Shown here in pieces: positions 43,975 to 59,246 of a stretch of 62,611 nt of DNA; the stretch's first letter is position 1; the number at the start of each line of letters is the position of its first letter. Under the pieces are notes generated by a model. That model saw nothing but the letters and a program-made list of their open reading frames with translations. It was not told the DNA's origin and made no database searches. A program made the translations under genes and the position numbers. This stretch comes from an uncultured Bacillota bacterium. Its GTDB lineage: Bacteria > Bacillota > Clostridia > Christensenellales > Borkfalkiaceae. The DNA is taken from assembly GCA_949287815.1 (NCBI GenBank), contig CASEHS010000007.1, positions 1-62,611 of the forward strand. Direction: 5' to 3'.

Positions 43975-45135
43975 TCAAGCAGGTTCGGAGAAGGGAATGT
44001 TGCGGGAAAGGACAGCGAAGATAATCCGCACGAGTTTCTTCATGCCGTGGGACATGGCAACGTAATAATGCTTTCCTTGCGCCCGTTTTCGGTCAATGTA
44101 GGAACGGAAAGAAAGCGAATTGACGTAAGCCATATCGGCAGCACAGTAGAGAGCGCGGCGAAGATAACGCGATCCGTGTTTCACCATTGGAGTGTTGGTG
44201 GCTGTGTATTTGCCGGATTGGTATGTGGACGGTTCACACCCTGCAAAAGCAAGAAGTTTATCAGGGTTGTCGAAATTCTTAATATCGCCGATTTCGGAAA
44301 GGATCGTTGCGCCGAGCAGATTGCCTATACCGGGAATAGACGTAATGGGAGAATTAAGTTCAGCCATAACGGAATCGATTTCACTTTCAATTTCGGACAT
44401 TTGGGAAGAAAGAAACTGAATGCGTGTGACAGTTTGTTTTAACTCGAAAGCGTCGCCGTAGTTGTAAGTAGCAATGGAATTTTGTGCAAGGGATTTAAGT
44501 TGTTCGGCACGACCACGTTTCAACATTCCGCGAGAAAATTCGGATAAAATCTTAGTGAGTTTTAAGATGTTACACTCGGCAATATCTTTGGCGGAAGGTA
44601 AGACAGAAAGCAAGTTCAAAGAAGTATTTCCGTAAAGATTGCTGAAAAATCCTTGCAATTCGGGGAAAAGAACGTGCAAAAGCCGTCTGAAACGGTTTTT
44701 GAGGGGTTGGATTTCCTGAAACAGGCGAAAGCGTGCGCGGGTCATTGACTTTAAGACGGAAATGTTGTAAGATTGGGATTGGTAGGGATTAGCAACACCT
44801 GTCAATAACAATCTTGCTATGTAACGCGAGTCGTTTTTATCCGTTTTGGTTTTTCTCAGCGACGCAGCAGAGCGCAACCGTGAAACGGAAAGTGGGTTAA
44901 AGACCACAACCTCGAAGTCGTGAGTTTTGAGGAAGGACAGCAGATTGGACGAGTAATGACCGGTAGCTTCAATCCCTACTTTTATTTTGCCCCAAGGAGA
45001 GACTTGTTTCAAGAACGATGCAAATCCGGCGGCTGAATTTGCGAAGGTAAAGTTATCGCAGAGGACAACGCCGTCCGAATCAACGGCATATAAATCGTGC
45101 TTGTCCTTAGCGACGTCGATACCGACAAAGACCAT
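43975..45135 (-). CDS. IS110-family DEDD recombinase (transposase)
   Basis: The protein has 386 residues. It starts with the RuvC-like motif MVFVGIDVAKDKHDLYAVD. VGIEATGHYSSNLLSFLKTHDFEVVVFNP and TKTDKNDSRYIA follow, giving the remaining acidic residues. The C-terminal Tnp2 domain has SIPGIGNLLGATILSEIGDIKNF, the GCEPSTYQSGKY segment with the conserved catalytic serine and KHGSRYLRRAL. The start is the ATG eight bases after GGAGG; a longer in-frame extension lacks a ribosome site. These enzymes work with a bridge RNA from the element's own end. The gene appears intact. Confidence 0.93.
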   Translation of the reverse strand: MVFVGIDVAKDKHDLYAVDSDGVVLCDNFTFANSAAGFASFLKQVSPWGKIKVGIEATGHYSSNLLSFLKTHDFEVVVFNPLSVSRLRSAASLRKTKTDKNDSRYIARLLLTGVANPYQSQSYNISVLKSMTRARFRLFQEIQPLKNRFRRLLHVLFPELQGFFSNLYGNTSLNLLSVLPSAKDIAECNILKLTKILSEFSRGMLKRGRAEQLKSLAQNSIATYNYGDAFELKQTVTRIQFLSSQMSEIESEIDSVMAELNSPITSIPGIGNLLGATILSEIGDIKNFDNPDKLLAFAGCEPSTYQSGKYTATNTPMVKHGSRYLRRALYCAADMAYVNSLSFRSYIDRKRAQGKHYYVAMSHGMKKLVRIIFAVLSRNIPFSEPA

Positions 45136-45210
45136 AAAGATAACCTCCGAAGTAAAAATAATAACTCGTGGCGAACCATAAACGAAAAGCCATGTAATCT
45201 CGTGAGACAT

Positions 45211-50896: not shown

Positions 50897-51565
50897 ATGG
50901 AAATGTTGGTAACAAAGTTCTCAAAAGGAAAGTATCGTAACGAAGGCGAACTGTTCGCCGAACCAATCTCTACGGATAACGTCAAACTCATGGGCGAGAT
51001 GATCGCTTTACAGGCGCTCCGCACCGTAAAGAAGTTTGATATGAAAGTTGCGGACAGATTGTATATCGGTCTCATCAAAGATCTGCACCATATGAGCGAG
51101 ATGGACTATATCGTATCAGACGGTTACGACGTAGCCCAGACTGCTATCTGCTTCCTGTATCAGTACGCCGGCAGAAAGGTTTCCGAGATTTGCGGTAAAG
51201 ACCGTAAAGGAAAGGAAATTACAATCAAACTTGCCTGCTATCGTGAGGTAGACAGATTCATCGATAGCTTACACAACCGCTCCGACAGACGCGGCGCAAT
51301 CGAATACATAGACTTTACGGACTACAAAGCATTACCGATGGACCCCGTGAACTGCTTCGAGAAAGAACAGACCGATTACAGCAAATACGATGAACTTGTA
51401 GCGGCGTTACAGTTATCCGCTTTGGAACTTGCCATTCTGAACTGCTATATGAACGGCATGAGGCAAGCAGAAGTATGCGCTGAACTCGGTATCGGCAGAG
51501 GTACTATCAATCACAGGAAAGCGAGCATCAGGCAAAGGTACTATTCTCTGTACGGCGAATTCTGA
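50897..51565 (+). CDS. Sigma-70 region-4-like helix-turn-helix protein of the island
   Basis: The protein has 222 residues. The C-terminal about 55 residues (LSALELAILNCYMNGMRQAEVCAELGIGRGTINHRKASIRQRY) form a sigma-70 region-4-type helix-turn-helix. The N-terminal part has no recognised sigma region 2, so it is more likely a mobile-element regulator than a full sigma factor. A good GGAGGTG ribosome site lies eight bases upstream. Base composition is richer in G+C than the flanks. It ends in a terminator of the same design as those in the two leader modules downstream. Confidence 0.75.
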   Translation: MEMLVTKFSKGKYRNEGELFAEPISTDNVKLMGEMIALQALRTVKKFDMKVADRLYIGLIKDLHHMSEMDYIVSDGYDVAQTAICFLYQYAGRKVSEICGKDRKGKEITIKLACYREVDRFIDSLHNRSDRRGAIEYIDFTDYKALPMDPVNCFEKEQTDYSKYDELVAALQLSALELAILNCYMNGMRQAEVCAELGIGRGTINHRKASIRQRYYSLYGEF

Positions 51566-51586: not shown

Positions 51587-51627
51587 CCATTGAAAAGGCA
51601 GGCTTTCAATTGGAGGCTTGCTTTTTT
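51587..51627 (+). terminator. Terminator/antiterminator pair after the sigma-like gene
   Basis: Terminator: GCAGGCTTTC pairs with GGAGGCTTGC (10 bp, AATT loop), then T6. Alternative: CCATTGAAA (51587-51595) pairs with TTTCAATTGG (51604-51613) and would block it. The 3' arm TTGGAGGC..GC-T6 matches the terminators at 51952 and 52148. Confidence 0.7.
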
Positions 51628-51773: not shown

Positions 51774-51802
51774 TTGCCTTTTAACTGCTATTGTGCTATA
51801 CT
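51774..51802 (+). promoter_or_regulatory. Extended -10 promoter of leader module A
   Basis: TTGCCT, a 17-base spacer and TATACT with TGC directly before the -10 box. The predicted start (51809) is the first base of the module A hairpin. The -10 area TTGTGCTATACT resembles module B's TTGTGATACACT. Confidence 0.75.
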
Positions 51803-51808
51803 AAAAAT

Positions 51809-51952
51809 GCGCTACAATTTAATGATCCGTATAAGGTTACACAACGGCATTGGTGTACCCTTTATATCCTTATACGGATAAATTGTAGCGCAAACAATTA
51901 AGGGGATACAACTATGCGGGCGTTCCCTTAATTGGGGGCGCTCTTATTTTTT
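51809..51952 (+). ncRNA. Leader/small RNA module A with attenuator
   Basis: About 144 bases. Tier 1: GCGCTACAATTT (51809-51820) with AAATTGTAGCGC (51880-51891), 12 bp. Tier 2: ATCCGTATAAGG (51825-51836) with CCTTATACGGAT (51868-51879), 12 bp. An apical TACAC/GTGTA stem lies inside. Then CAATTAAGGG (51895-51904) with CCCTTAATTG (51925-51934) competes with the terminator GGGCGTTCCC (51918-51927) / GGGGGCGCTC (51934-51943), which is followed by TTATTTTTT. The two hairpins share CCC...G, so only one can form. The module has its own promoter and could also act as a free small RNA. Confidence 0.75.
51914..51931 (+). CDS. Leader peptide A (MRAFP)
   Basis: ATGCGGGCGTTCCCTTAA, with AAGGGG eight bases upstream. 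The frame lies across the 3' arm of the antiterminator and the 5' arm of the terminator, so a ribosome here would change which hairpin forms. Too short to support on its own; the case rests on its paralogue in module B. Confidence 0.4.
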   Translation: MRAFP

Positions 51953-51975
51953 AGCAAATACCTGCGGCGCTGCTC

Positions 51976-52004
51976 TTGCAAAATCCGCCCGCTTGTGATA
52001 CACT
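51976..52004 (+). promoter_or_regulatory. Extended -10 promoter of leader module B
   Basis: TTGCAA, a 17-base spacer and TACACT with TGA directly before it. Predicted start 52011 is the first base of the module B hairpin, as in module A. Confidence 0.75.
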
Positions 52005-52010
52005 GTAATC

Positions 52011-52148
52011 GCTACACAAACTGAATATTCACATAACGGATACGAACAGGCATTTCGTATCTCTATTTTCCGTTATGTGAAAGTTTGTGTAGCAGCAATC
52101 GGAGATACTTTATGCGGGGCGTGTCTTCGGTTGGAGGCACGCTTTTTT
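52011..52148 (+). ncRNA. Leader RNA module B with attenuator, upstream of the BspA-like gene
   Basis: About 138 bases, with the same architecture as module A but mostly different bases. Tier 1: GCTACACAAACT (52011-52022) / AGTTTGTGTAGC (52082-52093), 12 bp. Tier 2: TTCACATAACGGA (52028-52040) / TCCGTTATGTGAA (52069-52081), 13 bp. Apical ATACGAA/TTCGTAT. Antiterminator: CAATCGGAGATAC (52096-52108) / GTGTCTTCGGTTG (52121-52133), 13 bp with wobbles. Terminator: GCGTGTCTTC (52119-52128) / GGAGGCACGC (52133-52142), loop GGTT, T6. Compensatory differences from module A support the pairing as real. Confidence 0.8.
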
Positions 52149-52177
52149 CTTTCCCCGCGAACGCAGCAGGAGGCTGA
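52112..52177 (+). CDS. Leader peptide B, abutting the BspA-like gene
   Basis: 21 codons starting MRGVSSVGG and ending ANAAGG. CGGAG lies seven bases before the ATG, in the loop of the antiterminator. The frame reads through the whole terminator hairpin and its T run, and its TGA stop is followed immediately by the ATG of the lipoprotein gene, so translation could be coupled. Shares the ATGCGGG start with leader A. Confidence 0.5.
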   Translation: MRGVSSVGGTLFSFPANAAGG

Positions 52178-55100
52178 ATGATGAAACGAAAACTGTTGGT
52201 TATCGTAATGGCTGTCGTAATGGTATTTTCATGTGCCATAGGATTTGCCGCATGCGGCGACAAAGGCGATGGCGGCGGTGGCGGAGGCGGGAACGGCACG
52301 ACCTATACCGTGACGTTTGAAACGGTCGGCGGTACGGCGATCGACCCCGTAGAGGTAAATGCTGGCGATACCGTGGCAAGACCTACCAATCCGACCAAAA
52401 CAGGTGCGGAATTTATAGACTGGTTCACTACGAGTACATATGAGGGCGACCCCTACGATTTTTCAACGCCTGTTAATTCCAACATCACATTGTATGCGCA
52501 ATGGTCGGATGAAAATTATGCGGTCGTATTTGATGTGAACGGCGGTTCCCCAGTTATCGAATATGCGACCTATGCCTACGGCACCGAGATAGACGAGCCT
52601 GACGATCCTGAGCGCGTCGGCTATACATTCACGGGCTGGTACACCGACGTGAAATGTACAAAGGCAGCTTCTTTCCCTTATGAGGTGACGAAACATACTC
52701 GTTTTTATGCCGGTTGGGAAAGCGCGCGCGAAGTGACGGTGAACTTTAAGATCGCTATGTTACGGGGCGACACGCGCGATATCAACTATGACGAAGAAAT
52801 ACTCGCTCCGATGACGATAACGGCAGGCGAAGAGCTTACCCAGCCCGAAAATCCGAAGGATATTACTTATCTCGATGAAGACGGAACGCATACGCTAAAA
52901 TTTTCCTATTGGAATTTTGATCCCGTTTACGGCGACTATTCCGATGCAGTGCTTTTCCCCGTGCGCACTACGGATGTCGAAGAGATTACACTGTATGCCG
53001 TGTACGTTGAGGTGGACGAAGAAGACACCTATGCAAGCCTTACCGTTCACCCGAATAACGGCGAAGAAGAAACGGTAATGTATGGCGTACAGGGCGAGGC
53101 GCTCGCCATTTCCAACCTCAACGAACACGACCCCGCGCCATTCTATTCGGATAAAAAACTTCCTCGCAATCCGGGTTACGAGGCAACAGGATATTTCAAG
53201 ACGCCTGATTTTGAATCCGGCACGGTATACGAAATTCCTTTCGTGCTTGAAAACGAGCAGAACGATGTATATATCCGTTGGGAAAAGAAGGATGATCTTA
53301 CCGTTACGTTCGACTATGGGTTCGACAGCATCGAAGACGAGACCGCCACATTCTCATATCGCGGGCTTATAGAGCGCCCCGAAAATAAAATGGTGACGGG
53401 CTACACCTTCGACGGCTGGTATTATGAATTGTATTCGGCAGTGGAAGAACAGCGCTGGAATTTTGAAACGGATACGGCTTCCACGGATATTACGCTCACC
53501 GCAAAATGGGTGAAGACAGCAACGGTGATCACTTACGACACATGCGGCGGGTATGAGCGCAATCCTGTTGCCGTCAGCCAGGGACGTGAGATAAAAGAAT
53601 TGCCCATCCCTGTCCGTCAGACTGGCGATACAGTTTATAACTTCCTCGGTTGGTATCTCGACAGCGGATATACGCAGGAAGCGGCGCTGCCTATGACAAT
53701 AAACGAGGATATTACCCTTTACGCAAAGTGGAGCAACGCAATAGACATCAGTTTATTTGAAATTCTCGACATAGGCGCGTCAAATGACTATGGCTATTCG
53801 ATTCGCGTGAGGTCGAATGCGAAGGAAGAGATTTCAGGTTCCGTTACTTTACCTGCACGATATGGAGGTGAAGACATCAGACGAATAGAAACGAATGCCT
53901 TTGCTGATTGCATAAATATAACCGAAATCATTGTTCCAGACACTGTTGCTTATTTATATCAAAATGCTTTCAGCGGATGTTCTTCGCTTGAAAAAATCAC
54001 TCTTCCCGAAACTTTGAAACAGATAAGCCGAGGCGCTTTTTCCGGCTGTGAAAAACTTGCCGAAGTAAATTTCCCTGATTCGGCATACAGCATTTATGCC
54101 GATATATTTGCCGATTGCCCGCTCATGCTTGAACAGCTTGAACAGGATACAGACGGTAATTACTATTGGGAATCAGCATTCCTCGGTAAGAGCTATGTGA
54201 CGGGCGAAAAGGTAGAAGACGATACGACGACTTCTGTAACGGTGCGTGATGGGACTACCGTCGTAGCCACATATTCGCTCTATTATATGAACGCATTGGA
54301 AACGGTGACTTTTGCCGATACGGTAAAATATCTGCCGAGCTATGTATTCCCTGCCAATGACGATTGCCCCATTAAAACGATCAATCTGCCGGCATCATAT
54401 ACCGAAGCTGGAAATCTGACTACGCATTTTCCCGTTAACGTGGAAACTTTTACGCTCTCCGATGCGAATGAGGAATTTGACTTGATTGACGGTTGCCTGA
54501 TATATGTTGATGATAACCGTCTGATTGCCTCTACCGTAAACGCAACAACTATCCCCGACGGCGTTGTGATCATCGGTGAAAGTTCGTTTACGAACAAAAA
54601 GACTGAAACTGTGGTCATACCCGATACCGTCACTACTATTCGCGAAAATGCCTTTGCAAACAGTTCGTTTACGAATATCAATCTTCCTGACAGTGTCGGT
54701 ATTCTGGACAGTACGGCGTTTGCGGGTTGCTCGGATATGCTCTCCATCACGTTCGGCGCCGGAATCAATTTGCAGAACGCTGCGCTGTTTGATGATATGA
54801 ACAAACTTCAAACGTTGAGCGTGAGCGCGAATAACCCGTATATGTACAGTCAGACGGACGTGCTTTACAGCAAGGCGACGAACACTATCATGTACTTTGC
54901 GCCCAAACACACCGGCCCCATAGAACTGGCTGAAGGGCTTGAAACTTTGCCTGCAGATGTTTTTGACATCAGTTCGGGTATCATTGAAAGTTTCGTCATC
55001 CCCGACAGTGTAACGGCGATTGAAGACGGTGCTTTCGACAGTATGTCTGTCGGTTCGCTCTACCTCGGTAAAAACGTACCCAAACTGAATGCCGATATGG

Positions 55101-58009
55101 GGTCGTTGATTTTGGTGAGCAGCGTGGAGGTTTCTGCTGAAAACCCGTATATGACATCGGTCGACGGCGTGCTTTACAGCAAAGACATGACCGAACTTTT
55201 GCTGTTCCCCGCTGAACGCGCCGGCTACGTTTTCCCCGATACCGTTACAAAGGTCGACGACTATATTTATATGCCATACCTCGATGACCTGACCGTCGGT
55301 GCGGGTATTACGCGCGAAACGTTTGAATTCCTTTTGTACGGCAATGAAGAAAACGGATGGGAGCCGGCCGTAACGTACGGTCTGAACACAGTAAATGTGA
55401 GCGCTGATAACAAAGAACTTACCATTTTTGAAGGCGTGGTGTATTCCAAAGACAAAAAGGAACTCGTTTATATCCCTTCGGGGTTTGACGGTGACCTTAT
55501 TCTGCCCAAAGAGATGGAAACTATCGGCTCATACTTTACGACGCGTTCTTCTTTGTGGCATGCAAGCGGCGAAGACGCCGACTACAACACGATCCATATC
55601 AAGACATTGCGCGTAGAAGAAGACAGTATGCTGCGGGAAATTTCCGAAAGCGCGTTTGTAAATATCGCCGATAGAAGCGGCGGATCTGCAAGTTTCCCCG
55701 CTTGGGTAGAAATAAATGAGTATGAATGGGCTGACACGCAAATGCAGGTGGACGAAGTTGACCTGTCTAATGCGACGGAACTTGAAAGCATCGGCTCTTA
55801 TGCATTCTACCGATTGGATACGCTTACTTCGGTAAAATTGCCTGAAACTTCGTATGCGCTCGGAGCGAGTGCGTTTGCTGATTGCACAAGCCTTGAAAGT
55901 GTCAGCGGACTGGCGCAGGCGACAGTAGACAATTCCTTCTATAACTGTCCGAAACTTTTTAACGAAGACGGACTGCTGATCATAGACGGCGTGTTGCTTG
56001 GTTTTGACATTTCTTCTTCGAATCCAAATTTGACCGGCGACCTTATTATACCGGAAAACGTCACAAAGATCGCAGGCGGTGCTCTCCGCTGGGTGGTTCT
56101 GCGCAGCATACGCATTCCCGATACAGTAGAGCTTGTATGCGAGGGCGCCATAGATCCTTCCGCAGATATCATCATCTATATTGAAGGTGAAAATACGGAG
56201 TATGAGGACGGCTGGTACGTTGACGGCGGCGATTGCGAAATCGTTATAATGAGGAACGGAGAATCCGAAAGCGGAGTTTACTACTATGTTGAACCCGAAA
56301 CAGGGCTGTATTACAGGCTCGATCCGAACGGTACGGCAAGCCTCATCAACGATAATTCCGCAACCGAAGCATGGGCGGGAAATGTAACGCTCGGCAATGT
56401 AGTGAACGGCGGGGAAGAATACATTCTCACTGAGATCGGAGAAAACGCATTCGGTGTAAATAGCAGCGGCATCACAGGCATAACCTTGCCGGATACTCTT
56501 ATCAAGATAGGCGGGAGTACCTTTGACTACATCGCCGTTGAGGAGCTCACCATTCCCGACAGTGTTGAAGAGATAGGTACTTTCCTGTTCTACGGCAACG
56601 AAACAATTAAAAGAGTGACGCTTTCATCGCAAATCACTGAAATACCGGATTATACATTCTATGGCTGCACAGTATTGGAAACGGTAGAGTGCGGAAATAT
56701 AACTTCCATAGCGGATAACGCATTCAACGGATGTATCAATCTGAAAGACTTTGACTTTACGAATGTTGAAACGTTAGGCGGTTATGCCTTCCGGGACAGC
56801 GGCATTACGCAGGCCAATTTCACAAAAGTAAAGACGATAGGCGACTATGCTTTCAGCGGCTGTTCCGCGCTTACAACGCTCACCATGAACGAAGGGCTTA
56901 CAAGCGTCGGGAAACAGGCATTTGGCGGAACGGGCATCAAAGAACTTTCCGTTCCCGCTTCGCTCACCGAGGTCGGCGACCACGCATTCTACGGCAACAG
57001 CGCGCTTGAAAAAGTTACGTTTGCTGGCGGTGTGTATGGCAAAGGTGCATTCCAGCAAAACGCAGTGCTCGCGACGGTGGTTTTTGTTGGCGGCATAGAT
57101 TACGAGGTTGGCGATCAGGCATTCTGGCAATGTACGGGGCTTACTTCAGTCACATTCGGTAACGGACTTACTTCTATCGGCGCCTATGCTTTCAGCGAAA
57201 CGGCGATAACGTCGCTTTCCTTCCCCGCAACATTAAAGACTATAGGAGACCATGCGTTCTATGATTGCATTACGACTGTTCCTGTTAAAGACGGAGAAAG
57301 TTACGAAACGCCTTCGCTCACTTCCGTTACATTTGCAGAGGGATTGGAGAGTATAGGCAATTACGCATTCTATCATGCAGCGCTTTCCGAAGTAACTTTC
57401 CCTAAAACACTTAAAATCATCGGGGATTATGCGTTTTATTATAATTTTACGCAAACACTTTCCGAAACGGACGGAACGCTGACTAAGACTGCTACATTGA
57501 AGAAAATCAATTTCAGCGAAGGGCTTACAAGCATCGGTACATATGCGTTCTATATGGCACCCGTTGAAAGTCTGGTAATGCCGGCATCGCTCACGGAATA
57601 CGGTGATCTTGCATTCCTCGGTTGTTCGTCGTTGAAAGAGGTAACTTTCGCGGACGGTTCAACAAATATAGGCGGAAAAGATGTCTTCCAGTGCAAAGCA
57701 CTCGAAAAGGTGACTTTCGGTTCGAGCAACGGGCTTGTGATCGCGGCAAGAACATTCTACGGTGCAAGTGCGCTGAAAGAGATTGTCTTTGCCGAAAATT
57801 GCGCGGTCAAAGAAATGGGTGATTATGCGTTCGGCAATACCGCGCTTACAGAATTTACTCTGCCCGGAGTTGAAGTTATGGGCAGGCAGGTATTCTACCA
57901 CTGCACAGGTCTGACTCTAACCGTTCCCTATGCCGAGGATGCATTGCCGGAAGGCTGGTCGACAAACTGGAACACCACGGCTGACGCGAAAGTCGTCTAC
58001 GCCGGGTAA
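52178..58009 (+). CDS. BspA-like leucine-rich-repeat surface lipoprotein with InlB B-repeats
   Basis: The protein has 1943 residues. A lipoprotein signal peptide ends in GFAAC (Cys26), followed by a Gly-rich linker, then five or six Listeria-Bacteroides (InlB B/Flg_new) repeats at about 45-570 (for example YTVTFETVGG..FIDWFT...ITLYAQW). From about 570 to 1940 there are many BspA-type LRR_5 units of the form AFxxCxxLxxVxLPxxLxxIGxxAF. It is exported and lipid-anchored and would be exposed on the surface; host or partner-cell adhesion is the usual inference. AGGAGG is four bases before ATG 52178 and seven before ATG 52181, so the second may be used. G+C is higher than in the flanks. Confidence 0.9.
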   Translation: MMKRKLLVIVMAVVMVFSCAIGFAACGDKGDGGGGGGGNGTTYTVTFETVGGTAIDPVEVNAGDTVARPTNPTKTGAEFIDWFTTSTYEGDPYDFSTPVNSNITLYAQWSDENYAVVFDVNGGSPVIEYATYAYGTEIDEPDDPERVGYTFTGWYTDVKCTKAASFPYEVTKHTRFYAGWESAREVTVNFKIAMLRGDTRDINYDEEILAPMTITAGEELTQPENPKDITYLDEDGTHTLKFSYWNFDPVYGDYSDAVLFPVRTTDVEEITLYAVYVEVDEEDTYASLTVHPNNGEEETVMYGVQGEALAISNLNEHDPAPFYSDKKLPRNPGYEATGYFKTPDFESGTVYEIPFVLENEQNDVYIRWEKKDDLTVTFDYGFDSIEDETATFSYRGLIERPENKMVTGYTFDGWYYELYSAVEEQRWNFETDTASTDITLTAKWVKTATVITYDTCGGYERNPVAVSQGREIKELPIPVRQTGDTVYNFLGWYLDSGYTQEAALPMTINEDITLYAKWSNAIDISLFEILDIGASNDYGYSIRVRSNAKEEISGSVTLPARYGGEDIRRIETNAFADCINITEIIVPDTVAYLYQNAFSGCSSLEKITLPETLKQISRGAFSGCEKLAEVNFPDSAYSIYADIFADCPLMLEQLEQDTDGNYYWESAFLGKSYVTGEKVEDDTTTSVTVRDGTTVVATYSLYYMNALETVTFADTVKYLPSYVFPANDDCPIKTINLPASYTEAGNLTTHFPVNVETFTLSDANEEFDLIDGCLIYVDDNRLIASTVNATTIPDGVVIIGESSFTNKKTETVVIPDTVTTIRENAFANSSFTNINLPDSVGILDSTAFAGCSDMLSITFGAGINLQNAALFDDMNKLQTLSVSANNPYMYSQTDVLYSKATNTIMYFAPKHTGPIELAEGLETLPADVFDISSGIIESFVIPDSVTAIEDGAFDSMSVGSLYLGKNVPKLNADMGSLILVSSVEVSAENPYMTSVDGVLYSKDMTELLLFPAERAGYVFPDTVTKVDDYIYMPYLDDLTVGAGITRETFEFLLYGNEENGWEPAVTYGLNTVNVSADNKELTIFEGVVYSKDKKELVYIPSGFDGDLILPKEMETIGSYFTTRSSLWHASGEDADYNTIHIKTLRVEEDSMLREISESAFVNIADRSGGSASFPAWVEINEYEWADTQMQVDEVDLSNATELESIGSYAFYRLDTLTSVKLPETSYALGASAFADCTSLESVSGLAQATVDNSFYNCPKLFNEDGLLIIDGVLLGFDISSSNPNLTGDLIIPENVTKIAGGALRWVVLRSIRIPDTVELVCEGAIDPSADIIIYIEGENTEYEDGWYVDGGDCEIVIMRNGESESGVYYYVEPETGLYYRLDPNGTASLINDNSATEAWAGNVTLGNVVNGGEEYILTEIGENAFGVNSSGITGITLPDTLIKIGGSTFDYIAVEELTIPDSVEEIGTFLFYGNETIKRVTLSSQITEIPDYTFYGCTVLETVECGNITSIADNAFNGCINLKDFDFTNVETLGGYAFRDSGITQANFTKVKTIGDYAFSGCSALTTLTMNEGLTSVGKQAFGGTGIKELSVPASLTEVGDHAFYGNSALEKVTFAGGVYGKGAFQQNAVLATVVFVGGIDYEVGDQAFWQCTGLTSVTFGNGLTSIGAYAFSETAITSLSFPATLKTIGDHAFYDCITTVPVKDGESYETPSLTSVTFAEGLESIGNYAFYHAALSEVTFPKTLKIIGDYAFYYNFTQTLSETDGTLTKTATLKKINFSEGLTSIGTYAFYMAPVESLVMPASLTEYGDLAFLGCSSLKEVTFADGSTNIGGKDVFQCKALEKVTFGSSNGLVIAARTFYGASALKEIVFAENCAVKEMGDYAFGNTALTEFTLPGVEVMGRQVFYHCTGLTLTVPYAEDALPEGWSTNWNTTADAKVVYAG

Positions 58010-58385: not shown

Positions 58386-58431
58386 CTTTTCTTTCACTCT
58401 ATCAGGGTAAGTCGCAAGCCTTTTGCGACTT

Positions 58432-59246
58432 TCAAACAAGATAGCACCCAGCCGCAAAAAAGAAATATTTGACTACATACTTTCGGGAAAGCTCATCTGC
58501 GGAAACTGCAAACACCGTATGAGCGGAGAAAGCGGTACTTCAAGGAACGGAGAAATCCATTACTACTATGTCTGTCTCTCAAAACGGCGCGGAAAGGCGG
58601 ACTGCGATTGCAAAGCCGTCAAAAAGCAAGAGTTAGAAGATTATGTCATCGACGCTACCGTCTCTATGTTGCAACGGAACAGCATCATCACGCAAATCGC
58701 GGAGACCATAGTCAAAGTGCATGAAAAGATCATGCGGGACAATTCGGGCTTGCAGATACTCATCAAGAAGAGAGACGAAGCGCAAAGAGCCGCAGACAAT
58801 ATCGTGAAAGCCATAGAGCAAGGCATCATCATGGACTTTACGAAAGACAGGTTGGCTGCGTTGCAGGACGAATTGAACAGGCTGGACATCGAGATAAACA
58901 AAGAACGCAGAAAACCTACGCCCACGTCACCGTGGAAGACGTGGAAAAGTATCTGCTCTCCAAAGTCTTTGAAGACCCGGACGATATCAAAACACGCAAA
59001 CTGCTCGTAAACACCTTCATCCGCGACATCCTCTGGTACGGCGACCACATCGTCATCACTTACAACTTCCAAGAGTACGCCGCAACGGACAGGTTCTGCA
59101 AATCCTATGTCGAGCAATTAGAAAAGCAGGTCGGGGACGCTTTCCGATCTGATTCTTCTTTCCCTTTGTGTTCGTACAAATTCCGGCACTCGGCACCATG
59201 TGATACACCTATTGCAATTCGAACCTCCGTGGTTGGACAGCAATAG
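58432..59246 (+). pseudogene. Large serine recombinase, N-terminally truncated and frameshifted
   Basis: Starting at KIAPSRKKEIFDYILSGKLICGNCKHRMSG the frame matches the zinc-ribbon and coiled-coil C-terminal part of large serine recombinases (two CxxC-type pairs, then a Leu-rich coiled coil to about 58910). Near 58912 the frame shifts by one base and continues as VTVEDVEKYLLSKVFEDPDDIKTRKLLVNTFI...DHIVITYNF. The catalytic resolvase domain is missing; the GC-rich palindromes and tandem repeat lie where it should be. It is a remnant of the integrase that probably brought in this island. The frameshift could also be an assembly error, but the N-terminal loss cannot. Confidence 0.85.
59187..59199 (+). 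repeat. Right copy of the candidate attachment repeat
   Basis: CACTCGGCACCAT, directly after the recombinase remnant, matches the tRNA-Leu end with one extra G. The bases before it (CAAATTCCGG) also resemble the T-arm. See 50497-50508. Confidence 0.35.

Follow-up and report, generated by a model that had tools for sequence, protein, structure and literature searches.

The two tandem hairpin modules (A and B) that lie within positions 51774-52148 of the window, i.e., of the whole 62,611-nt stretch analyzed here, are likely members of a Clostridia family of promoter-fused attenuators working by RNA strand exchange. In the proposed mechanism, the transcript would open with a rod of two parts (P1-P2), whose first base is the start site; at the tip of the rod are a small hairpin (P3) and a loop that is single-stranded (J3/2). 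Downstream of the rod, the linker (R) could pair with the 5' arm of the terminator (T5') to give an antiterminator and hence read-through; alternatively, it could pair with the apical strand R', made up of the 3' strand of P3 and J3/2, in which case the terminator arm would be freed and transcription would stop. P3 would hide R', so that P3:R' and R:T5' would constitute the ON state and R':R and T5':T3' the OFF state of a five-strand exchange, with J3/2 acting as the toehold for the invasion of P3 by R. A signal that holds P3 closed or favors the antiterminator would turn on the surface-protein gene. We infer both that these pairings act as a switch and that such a signal exists; direct sensing of a small molecule and a protein have similar odds of being that signal. 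The features of the locus are collected in Table 1.

Table 1. Predicted features of modules A and B and of the downstream gene (window coordinates)
Feature	Positions	Strand	Basis
Promoter A: -35 TTGCCT 51774-51779, 17-nt spacer, extended -10 TATACT 51797-51802	51774..51802	+	sequence; family-wide placement
Hairpin of module A	51808..51892	+	folding; P1/P2 covariation in family
Module A P1 (14 bp)	51808-51821/51879-51892	+	
Module A 5' bulge ATGA	51822-51825	+	
Module A P2 (11 bp)	51826-51836/51868-51878	+	
Module A P3	51838-51842/51853-51857	+	
Module A J3/2, 3' internal loop	51858-51867	+	
Strand R' of module A, from the end of the P3 loop through the 3' strand of P3 and J3/2; complementary to linker R	51851..51867	+	family pairing test
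Linker R of module A; antiterminator 5' arm 51895-51907 pairs with 51922-51934	51893..51914	+	nascent folding; family test
Intrinsic terminator A: stem 51918-51927/51934-51943, U-tract to 51952	51918..51952	+	folding
Promoter B: -35 TTGCAA 51976-51981, 17-nt spacer, extended -10 TACACT 51999-52004	51976..52004	+	sequence; family-wide placement
Hairpin of module B	52010..52093	+	folding; top score among own genome's six copies
Module B P1 (12 bp)	52011-52022/52082-52093	+	
Module B 5' bulge GAATA	52023-52027	+	
Module B P2 (13 bp)	52028-52040/52069-52081	+	
Module B P3, loop CAGGCAT	52041-52046/52054-52059	+	
Module B J3/2	52060-52068	+	
Strand R' of module B, from the end of the P3 loop through the 3' strand of P3 and J3/2; complementary to linker R	52049..52066	+	family pairing test
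Linker R of module B; antiterminator 5' arm 52096-52108 pairs with 52121-52133	52094..52115	+	nascent folding
Intrinsic terminator B: core stem 52119-52128/52133-52142, U-tract 52143-52148	52119..52148	+	folding
Gene 3' of the modules, for a predicted lipoprotein of 1943 aa containing Flg_new (List_Bact_rpt) repeats and BspA-type LRR_5 repeats	52178..58009	+	ORF, Pfam

The folding energies of both modules lie far below those of dinucleotide shuffles (z -6.7 for A and -8.2 for B; 0 of 200 shuffles in each case), and an equally long basal stem within the first three bases arose in 0 of 3000 mononucleotide shuffles of A and 4 of 3000 of B. Folding of nascent RNAs indicates that, among the lengths listed, the minimum-energy structure contains the antiterminator at 122-134 nt in A and 118-130 nt in B, and the terminator from 138 and 134 nt, respectively, with the two structures ~3 kcal/mol apart in both modules; the change comes once the 3' arm of the terminator has emerged. 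The original prediction of two promoter-hairpin-attenuator modules at this place is confirmed by sequence and folding, as are the common promoter layout (an extended -10 and a 17-base spacer in both), the 5' bulge of four to five bases and the mutually exclusive antiterminator and terminator hairpins. Its stem lengths of 12 bp for the basal and 12-13 bp for the second stem apply to module B and fail for module A. The predicted position before a surface-protein gene is likewise borne out by the Flg_new and LRR_5 repeats of the downstream ORF, the product of which would be a lipoprotein, judging from its N-terminus. In both modules a TGC[AG]GG stretch 5' of the terminator could pair with a CCCTGC/GCCCGC-like stretch (window positions 51904-51957 and 52113-52160), which could lengthen the hairpin in read-through RNA; among family members with TGC[AG]GG, such a stretch follows right after the U-tract in 30 of 65.

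Several features of the surroundings may be noted in their own right. A 222-aa ORF at 50897-51565 reads like a sigma-like regulator of mobile elements and has no Pfam match. The terminator 3' of it (51590-51627) has a nested alternative hairpin (ATTGAAA/CTTTCAAT) as well as a AATTGGAGGC loop resembling the module terminators; it is perhaps the remnant of a third module, or a chance likeness. Further out, the flanking ORFs at 43975-45210 and 58423-59010 of the window resemble, on reading, an IS110-type transposase and a fragment of a recombinase.

The strongest sign that the modules are not a product of chance is that the arms vary between the family copies and nonetheless remain paired, extending across the family what had been claimed of the arms of A and B. 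When 93 members are aligned, changes on both sides are seen at every one of the 42 modelled pairs. The alignment is model-fitted, and the fraction of paired cells, 90.7% as against 37-49% in slid controls, leans to the model, as do the paired fractions of 99.0% for P1, 91-96% for P2, about 79-82% for P3 and 88% for the terminator; the same alignment gives a covariation score of 0.716 versus 0.199 in shuffles. In a set of 71 members 82.8% of the cells are paired, with the terminator helix, which is partly out of register there, at 62%. This pattern of compensated change indicates that the fold is under selection as RNA.

The family was delineated with three covariance models, namely R1, built from six copies in the same genome, R2, built from 71 members, and the broader R3; the first MAFFT alignment had placed the apical part wrongly, and the later models were made from search alignments. 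The genome itself (89.8% complete) holds six clear copies, A and B included, of which four (A, B, L009 and L010) precede three surface-type protein genes. The gene after L009 combines Flg_new with collagen repeats, and that after L010 combines LRR_5, a trypsin domain and Flg_new (Pfam). For the copy in L007, a clear same-strand gene close on its 3' side was not found, and the sixth (L008:90-197, minus strand) is without the terminator half and adjoins a gene that reads as a recombinase. R3 at E up to 1 returned four further weak rows in this genome; one is a copy already found, read on its reverse strand, and another, G000:C24:3575-3709 (E 8.7e-4 with R3), is a possible seventh copy.

Beyond this genome, R1 gave 90 matches in 31 of 61 genomes, its own included. 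The scans of the order, class and phylum scored 8 candidates per genome, so that the genome counts are lower bounds: with the own genome included, R2 matched at least 122 of 396 genomes and at least 39 of 142 genera of the order, and at least 89 of 391 genomes and at least 55 of 223 genera of the class. In the draw of 398 genomes from the phylum, the own genome alone matched with R2 and then R3 among the candidates scored; this draw also contained some genomes of the same class without the element. A deeper scan of ten genomes, picked for having matches, counted 5-20 copies in each and 121 in total. Among named records, a pattern scan that detects one subtype only retrieved 20 stretches, from Candidatus Gallimonas, Candidatus Coproplasma and uncultured Clostridia or Firmicutes. 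In IMG/VR, 39 contigs match the consensus pattern, 38 of them with a model match at E below 1e-9, and a blastn search of both modules and one IMG/VR copy against phage and plasmid records gave no match. The search for relatives that the original prediction had proposed thus uncovered a large family, with its expected home in clostridial mobile elements represented by the IMG/VR contigs only. In prophage-like IMG/VR loci (L222, L246, L219, L237 and others) the element stands before small PASTA-domain or unassigned genes, at least two of them (L222 and L246) leading PASTA-domain genes, and the genes downstream of such copies are possibly lysogenic cargo. For the analyses of parsed members a set of 175 matches was used, from which 10 identical or unparseable ones were left out, as was a minus-strand match in L062 that is the reverse reading of the palindromic rod; 3 more have no parsed terminator.

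Inspection of the region upstream of the rod shows that, of 164 members, 149 have a -10 hexamer, searched for over 11 positions, that ends 5-6 nt 5' of the point where pairing begins. The hexamer matches TATAAT at 5 or 6 of 6 positions in 143 of the 164, versus 35 of 164 in one shuffle, and has a TG extension in 146; a spacer of 17 nt predominates, ties in the choice of the -35 having gone to 17. Such placement implies that the promoter belongs to the unit. Because the -10 stands at a fixed distance from the rod, transcripts very probably have the first base of the rod as their 5' end, and the predicted start sites agree with the original placement of the start on the first hairpin base. We know of no described riboswitch family with a promoter fused in this fixed manner.

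Both hallmarks of a transcription attenuator, a terminator in the leader and an antiterminator that excludes it, are present in the element by sequence and folding. Across 162 parsed members, the terminator averages -16.8 and the antiterminator -12.9 kcal/mol, with a median difference of 3.85 kcal/mol and the antiterminator the more stable in 18. Since the terminator is usually the more stable of the two, the element is probably OFF at rest.

The linker R is reverse-complementary to T5' and also to the apical strand R', the latter being the second alternative pairing, which, like the size of the family, the original prediction had missed. The specificity of the two pairings was assessed by grouping 157 members into 47 clusters by linker sequence and comparing the own partners of the representatives, among which kinship remains, with permuted ones. 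The own R':R duplexes average -14.5 kcal/mol as against -9.3 for permuted partners (z -11.7, 0 of 5000), and own R:T5', i.e., the antiterminator, likewise stands out (z -13.3, 0 of 5000 permutations). In the same 47 clusters two strand controls gave z 0.7 and 0.1, and R':T5' gave z 2.0. J3/2, which is unpaired while P3 is closed, by itself retains a cognate signal with R (z -4.3, 0 of 10000; 44 clusters, from 140 members); its shuffled control gave z -1.2 and its reversed control keeps a weak signal (z -2.0, 225 of 10000). The P3 loop alone has no cognate signal with R (z 0.5), and a kissing of this loop with the antiterminator loop was rejected for this lack. A fold-back geometry with matched P1 and P2 lengths was also dropped, since these lengths show no correlation (r -0.16; 70 of 83 parsed members with three stems) and neither do those of the rod and J3/2 (see below).

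Certain observations count against strand exchange: R':R would form a pseudoknot around ~25 bp of rod, and the lengths of J3/2 and the rod are not correlated (Spearman 0.09, P 0.26), as they might be under a tight geometric constraint. On isolated pieces, without a pseudoknot penalty, the computed stabilities favor the R':R duplex over the P3 hairpin in 94% of 149 members. When R':R pairing was tested again on the prophage-like copies, with ten representatives that are much alike, the signal was weak (z -1.7, 230 of 5000).

These same strands admit a second reading, which we regard as possible though tentative, namely protein-controlled antitermination, wherein an RNA-binding protein would recognize both the P3 hairpin and a similar R:T5' hairpin and stabilize the latter. 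R would then resemble P3 since both are binding sites, and R':R would be a by-product. Consistent with this, R directly resembles the 5' strand of P2/P3 (direct-repeat test, z -4.0, 1 of 10000), the P3 hairpin contains GG[CT]A in 111 of 149 members (17.4 in shuffles), and the advantage of the terminator over the antiterminator would make a stabilizer useful. However, J3/2 covaries with R even though a hairpin binding site has no need of J3/2, and the candidate antiterminator proteins find no support. In 17 element-bearing genomes, CAT_RBD (LicT/BglG-type) proteins were found in none and LoaP above the NCBIfam cut-off in none, with one weaker match to the LoaP model, probably NusG, in each of the 17. 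ANTAR proteins occur in 11 and are missing in 6, three of which are 98-99% complete and have 7-10 copies of the element. The element can thus do without LicT- and ANTAR-type proteins. The original prediction had left the decision to binding of a ribosome or a factor; a factor is possible, with none found, while the ribosome does not hold for the family (see below).

Returning to strand exchange in cis, the genomic context of the element gives insights into what it might control. Among 140 members with sufficient flanking sequence, 113 are followed within 200 nt, on their own strand, by a gene start, scored as an ATG with a ribosome-binding site opening at least 100 codons, versus 13 of 140 in a mirror control, and the median distance from the end of the match to the start codon is 33 nt. 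By a simple pattern, 53 of the downstream products in these 140 have a lipobox-like N-terminus, as against none in the mirror control. This one-sided arrangement marks the element as the leader of the downstream gene, and it probably decides whether that gene is transcribed. The same evidence, together with an antiterminator that covaries and is needless for a small RNA, makes it unlikely that the units are free-standing trans-acting small RNAs with incidental read-through, even though each is a complete promoter-terminator unit with a stable hairpin and a 5' end paired from the first base, and, among the 153 members with sufficient flanking sequence, 23 lack a qualifying gene start in the next 200 nt.

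Pfam analysis of the downstream proteins covered 99 of 130 references, 31 doubtful or repeated ORFs having been removed by hand. Altogether 60 families were matched, with BspA-type LRR_5 in 22 of the 99 proteins and zinc ribbons, SHOCT, PASTA, Flg_new and LytTR (two members) in a few each. In two loci (L103:1001-1708 and L110:3209-3898) the element leads a response-regulator-like gene, with LytTR in L103; such targets are a possible route to a regulatory cascade.

A further alternative, ribosome-mediated attenuation, was suggested by the ATGCGGG leader start that the original prediction had pointed out, and which is present after an SD-like stretch in both A and B. Here a ribosome starting or stalling on a short leader ORF would block the pairing of R and thereby set the terminator. 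Within the genus this idea has some appeal: TGC[AG]GG occurs in 49 of 71 members and some ATG, GTG or TTG with an SD in 55 of 71. Over 62 members of the family, the base 5' of TGC[AG]GG is A in 35, T in 15, G in 10 and C in 2, as in start codons. In other genera, however, TGC[AG]GG is found in 9 of 73 members, and an ATG with SD, present in 38 of 149 members overall, falls from 30 of 71 in the genus and 3 of 5 in the named records to 5 of 73. Because the ATGCGGG start is common in the genus and not in other genera, control by the ribosome is unsupported for the family and the start is not a family-wide feature. Further, there is no conserved leader peptide, because the frame in module A ends after five codons and that in L009 runs into the frame of the next gene; on inspection, the TGC may instead be kept for pairing with the GCA of the P3 loop. 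We hold this explanation, like that of free-standing small RNAs, to be unlikely. Finally, a MITE-like mobile or invertible repeat acting at the DNA level, with the RNA pairing as a by-product of inverted repeats, could account for the several copies per genome, the recombinase gene adjoining the L008 copy and the copies in IMG/VR contigs, but is very improbable, as the arms vary between copies and are kept by compensation where a fresh mobile repeat would retain arm sequence, and as promoter placement, antiterminator and gene orientation are conserved.

The tandem arrangement of A and B recurs in the family, with 7 pairs among the 90 matches and 11 among the 121 (counted by eye). Of ten pairs measured, eight are 35-58 nt apart, which is just enough for a second promoter, and two are 147 and 149 nt apart. 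Under the strand-exchange model, a transcript from promoter A would have to pass two terminators and one from promoter B a single one. The partners are of differing sequence type in some pairs and alike in others. A and B, which read as different subtypes, fall in the former group, so that the predicted duplicated system stands as a pair of paralogues but not as a simple local copy. Orthogonality of the partners as a rule was rejected, with 3 of 7 parsed pairs (L047, L101 and L210) cross-pairing fully and three further pairs unparseable. A shared upstream partner gene was also considered and dropped: among 141 upstream genes the largest blastp group comprises the window locus, L055 and L057, and the next-largest groups have 3 members. 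A gene related to the one upstream of the tandem (ORF 50897-51565) also precedes tandems in L055 and L057, from two other genomes of the genus.

Comparisons with known systems place the element within the familiar kind of the transcription attenuator, as an apparently undescribed family of an unusual promoter-fused and tandem-prone form. Trp-type attenuators consist of a chain of mutually exclusive hairpins, which the element shares, unlike their leader ORF, which it lacks as a family-wide feature. In LicT/BglG (CAT_RBD) and ANTAR antitermination, the antiterminator hairpin overlaps the terminator and a protein stabilizes it; the overlap is comparable, whereas CAT_RBD proteins are missing from all and ANTAR proteins from some of the 17 element-bearing genomes, as given above. 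Strand-exchange riboswitches (fluoride, ZTP and yxjA purine; PMC11077080, PMC10085676, PMC9756952) likewise couple a folded 5' domain, an alternative linker pairing and an intrinsic terminator in cis control. The element differs from them in having no Rfam riboswitch match, a promoter fused at fixed distance, a sequence-variable rod and diverse downstream genes. Its structure is conserved, as are two sequence motifs, GG[CT]A in the P3 hairpin and CAA where the linker starts, each in 111 of 149 members. Tandem riboswitches (PMC9481103, PMC5912903) also place two switches in series before one gene, whereas in this family each unit has its own promoter and terminator.

In gene context the nearest published idea is the SLH motif (PMC6429828), a cis-regulatory riboswitch candidate described upstream of surface-protein genes, about 60% of the time before SLH-domain genes, partly in Clostridia and also in Synergistaceae and Negativicutes. 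The element is set apart from it by context and stated range alone, since, at E 0.001, no more than one of the 99 downstream proteins carries SLH; the protein downstream in L158 has SLH at E 0.0011 and misses this cut-off.

In agreement with the original statement that no known RNA class fits, Rfam 15 at the gathering threshold gave no match over the element in the window and 20 loci. For the module region at E up to 10 there were 15 matches, all below gathering and with plant miRNA models as the best, and for 20 further loci at E 0.01 none at gathering over the element. The motif is not named in the accessible portions of the open-access literature, including those of PMC8040213, PMC11109978, PMC2965389 and PMC6429828, with an unnamed entry in a supplementary motif list being possible. 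The earlier interpretation is, on the whole, partly supported. The wider proposition, that a promoter, a sensor rod and a three-way strand-exchange attenuator form a tandem-stackable cassette that represents an undescribed signal-responsive RNA class across Clostridia with up to 20 copies per genome, appears to us evenly balanced.

If this is true, surface lipoproteins, small membrane and zinc-ribbon proteins and prophage-borne genes would come under one common signal. A single RNA cassette before many poorly characterized surface and accessory genes would define a Clostridia-wide regulon, lying in Clostridia known largely from metagenome assemblies and pointing to a shared signal. The family also provides an extensive natural alignment that covers a whole expression platform and shows the antiterminator and decoy pairings covarying. 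If R' acts as drawn here, it would represent a five-strand exchange circuit that has been kept intact while most of the stem sequences change.
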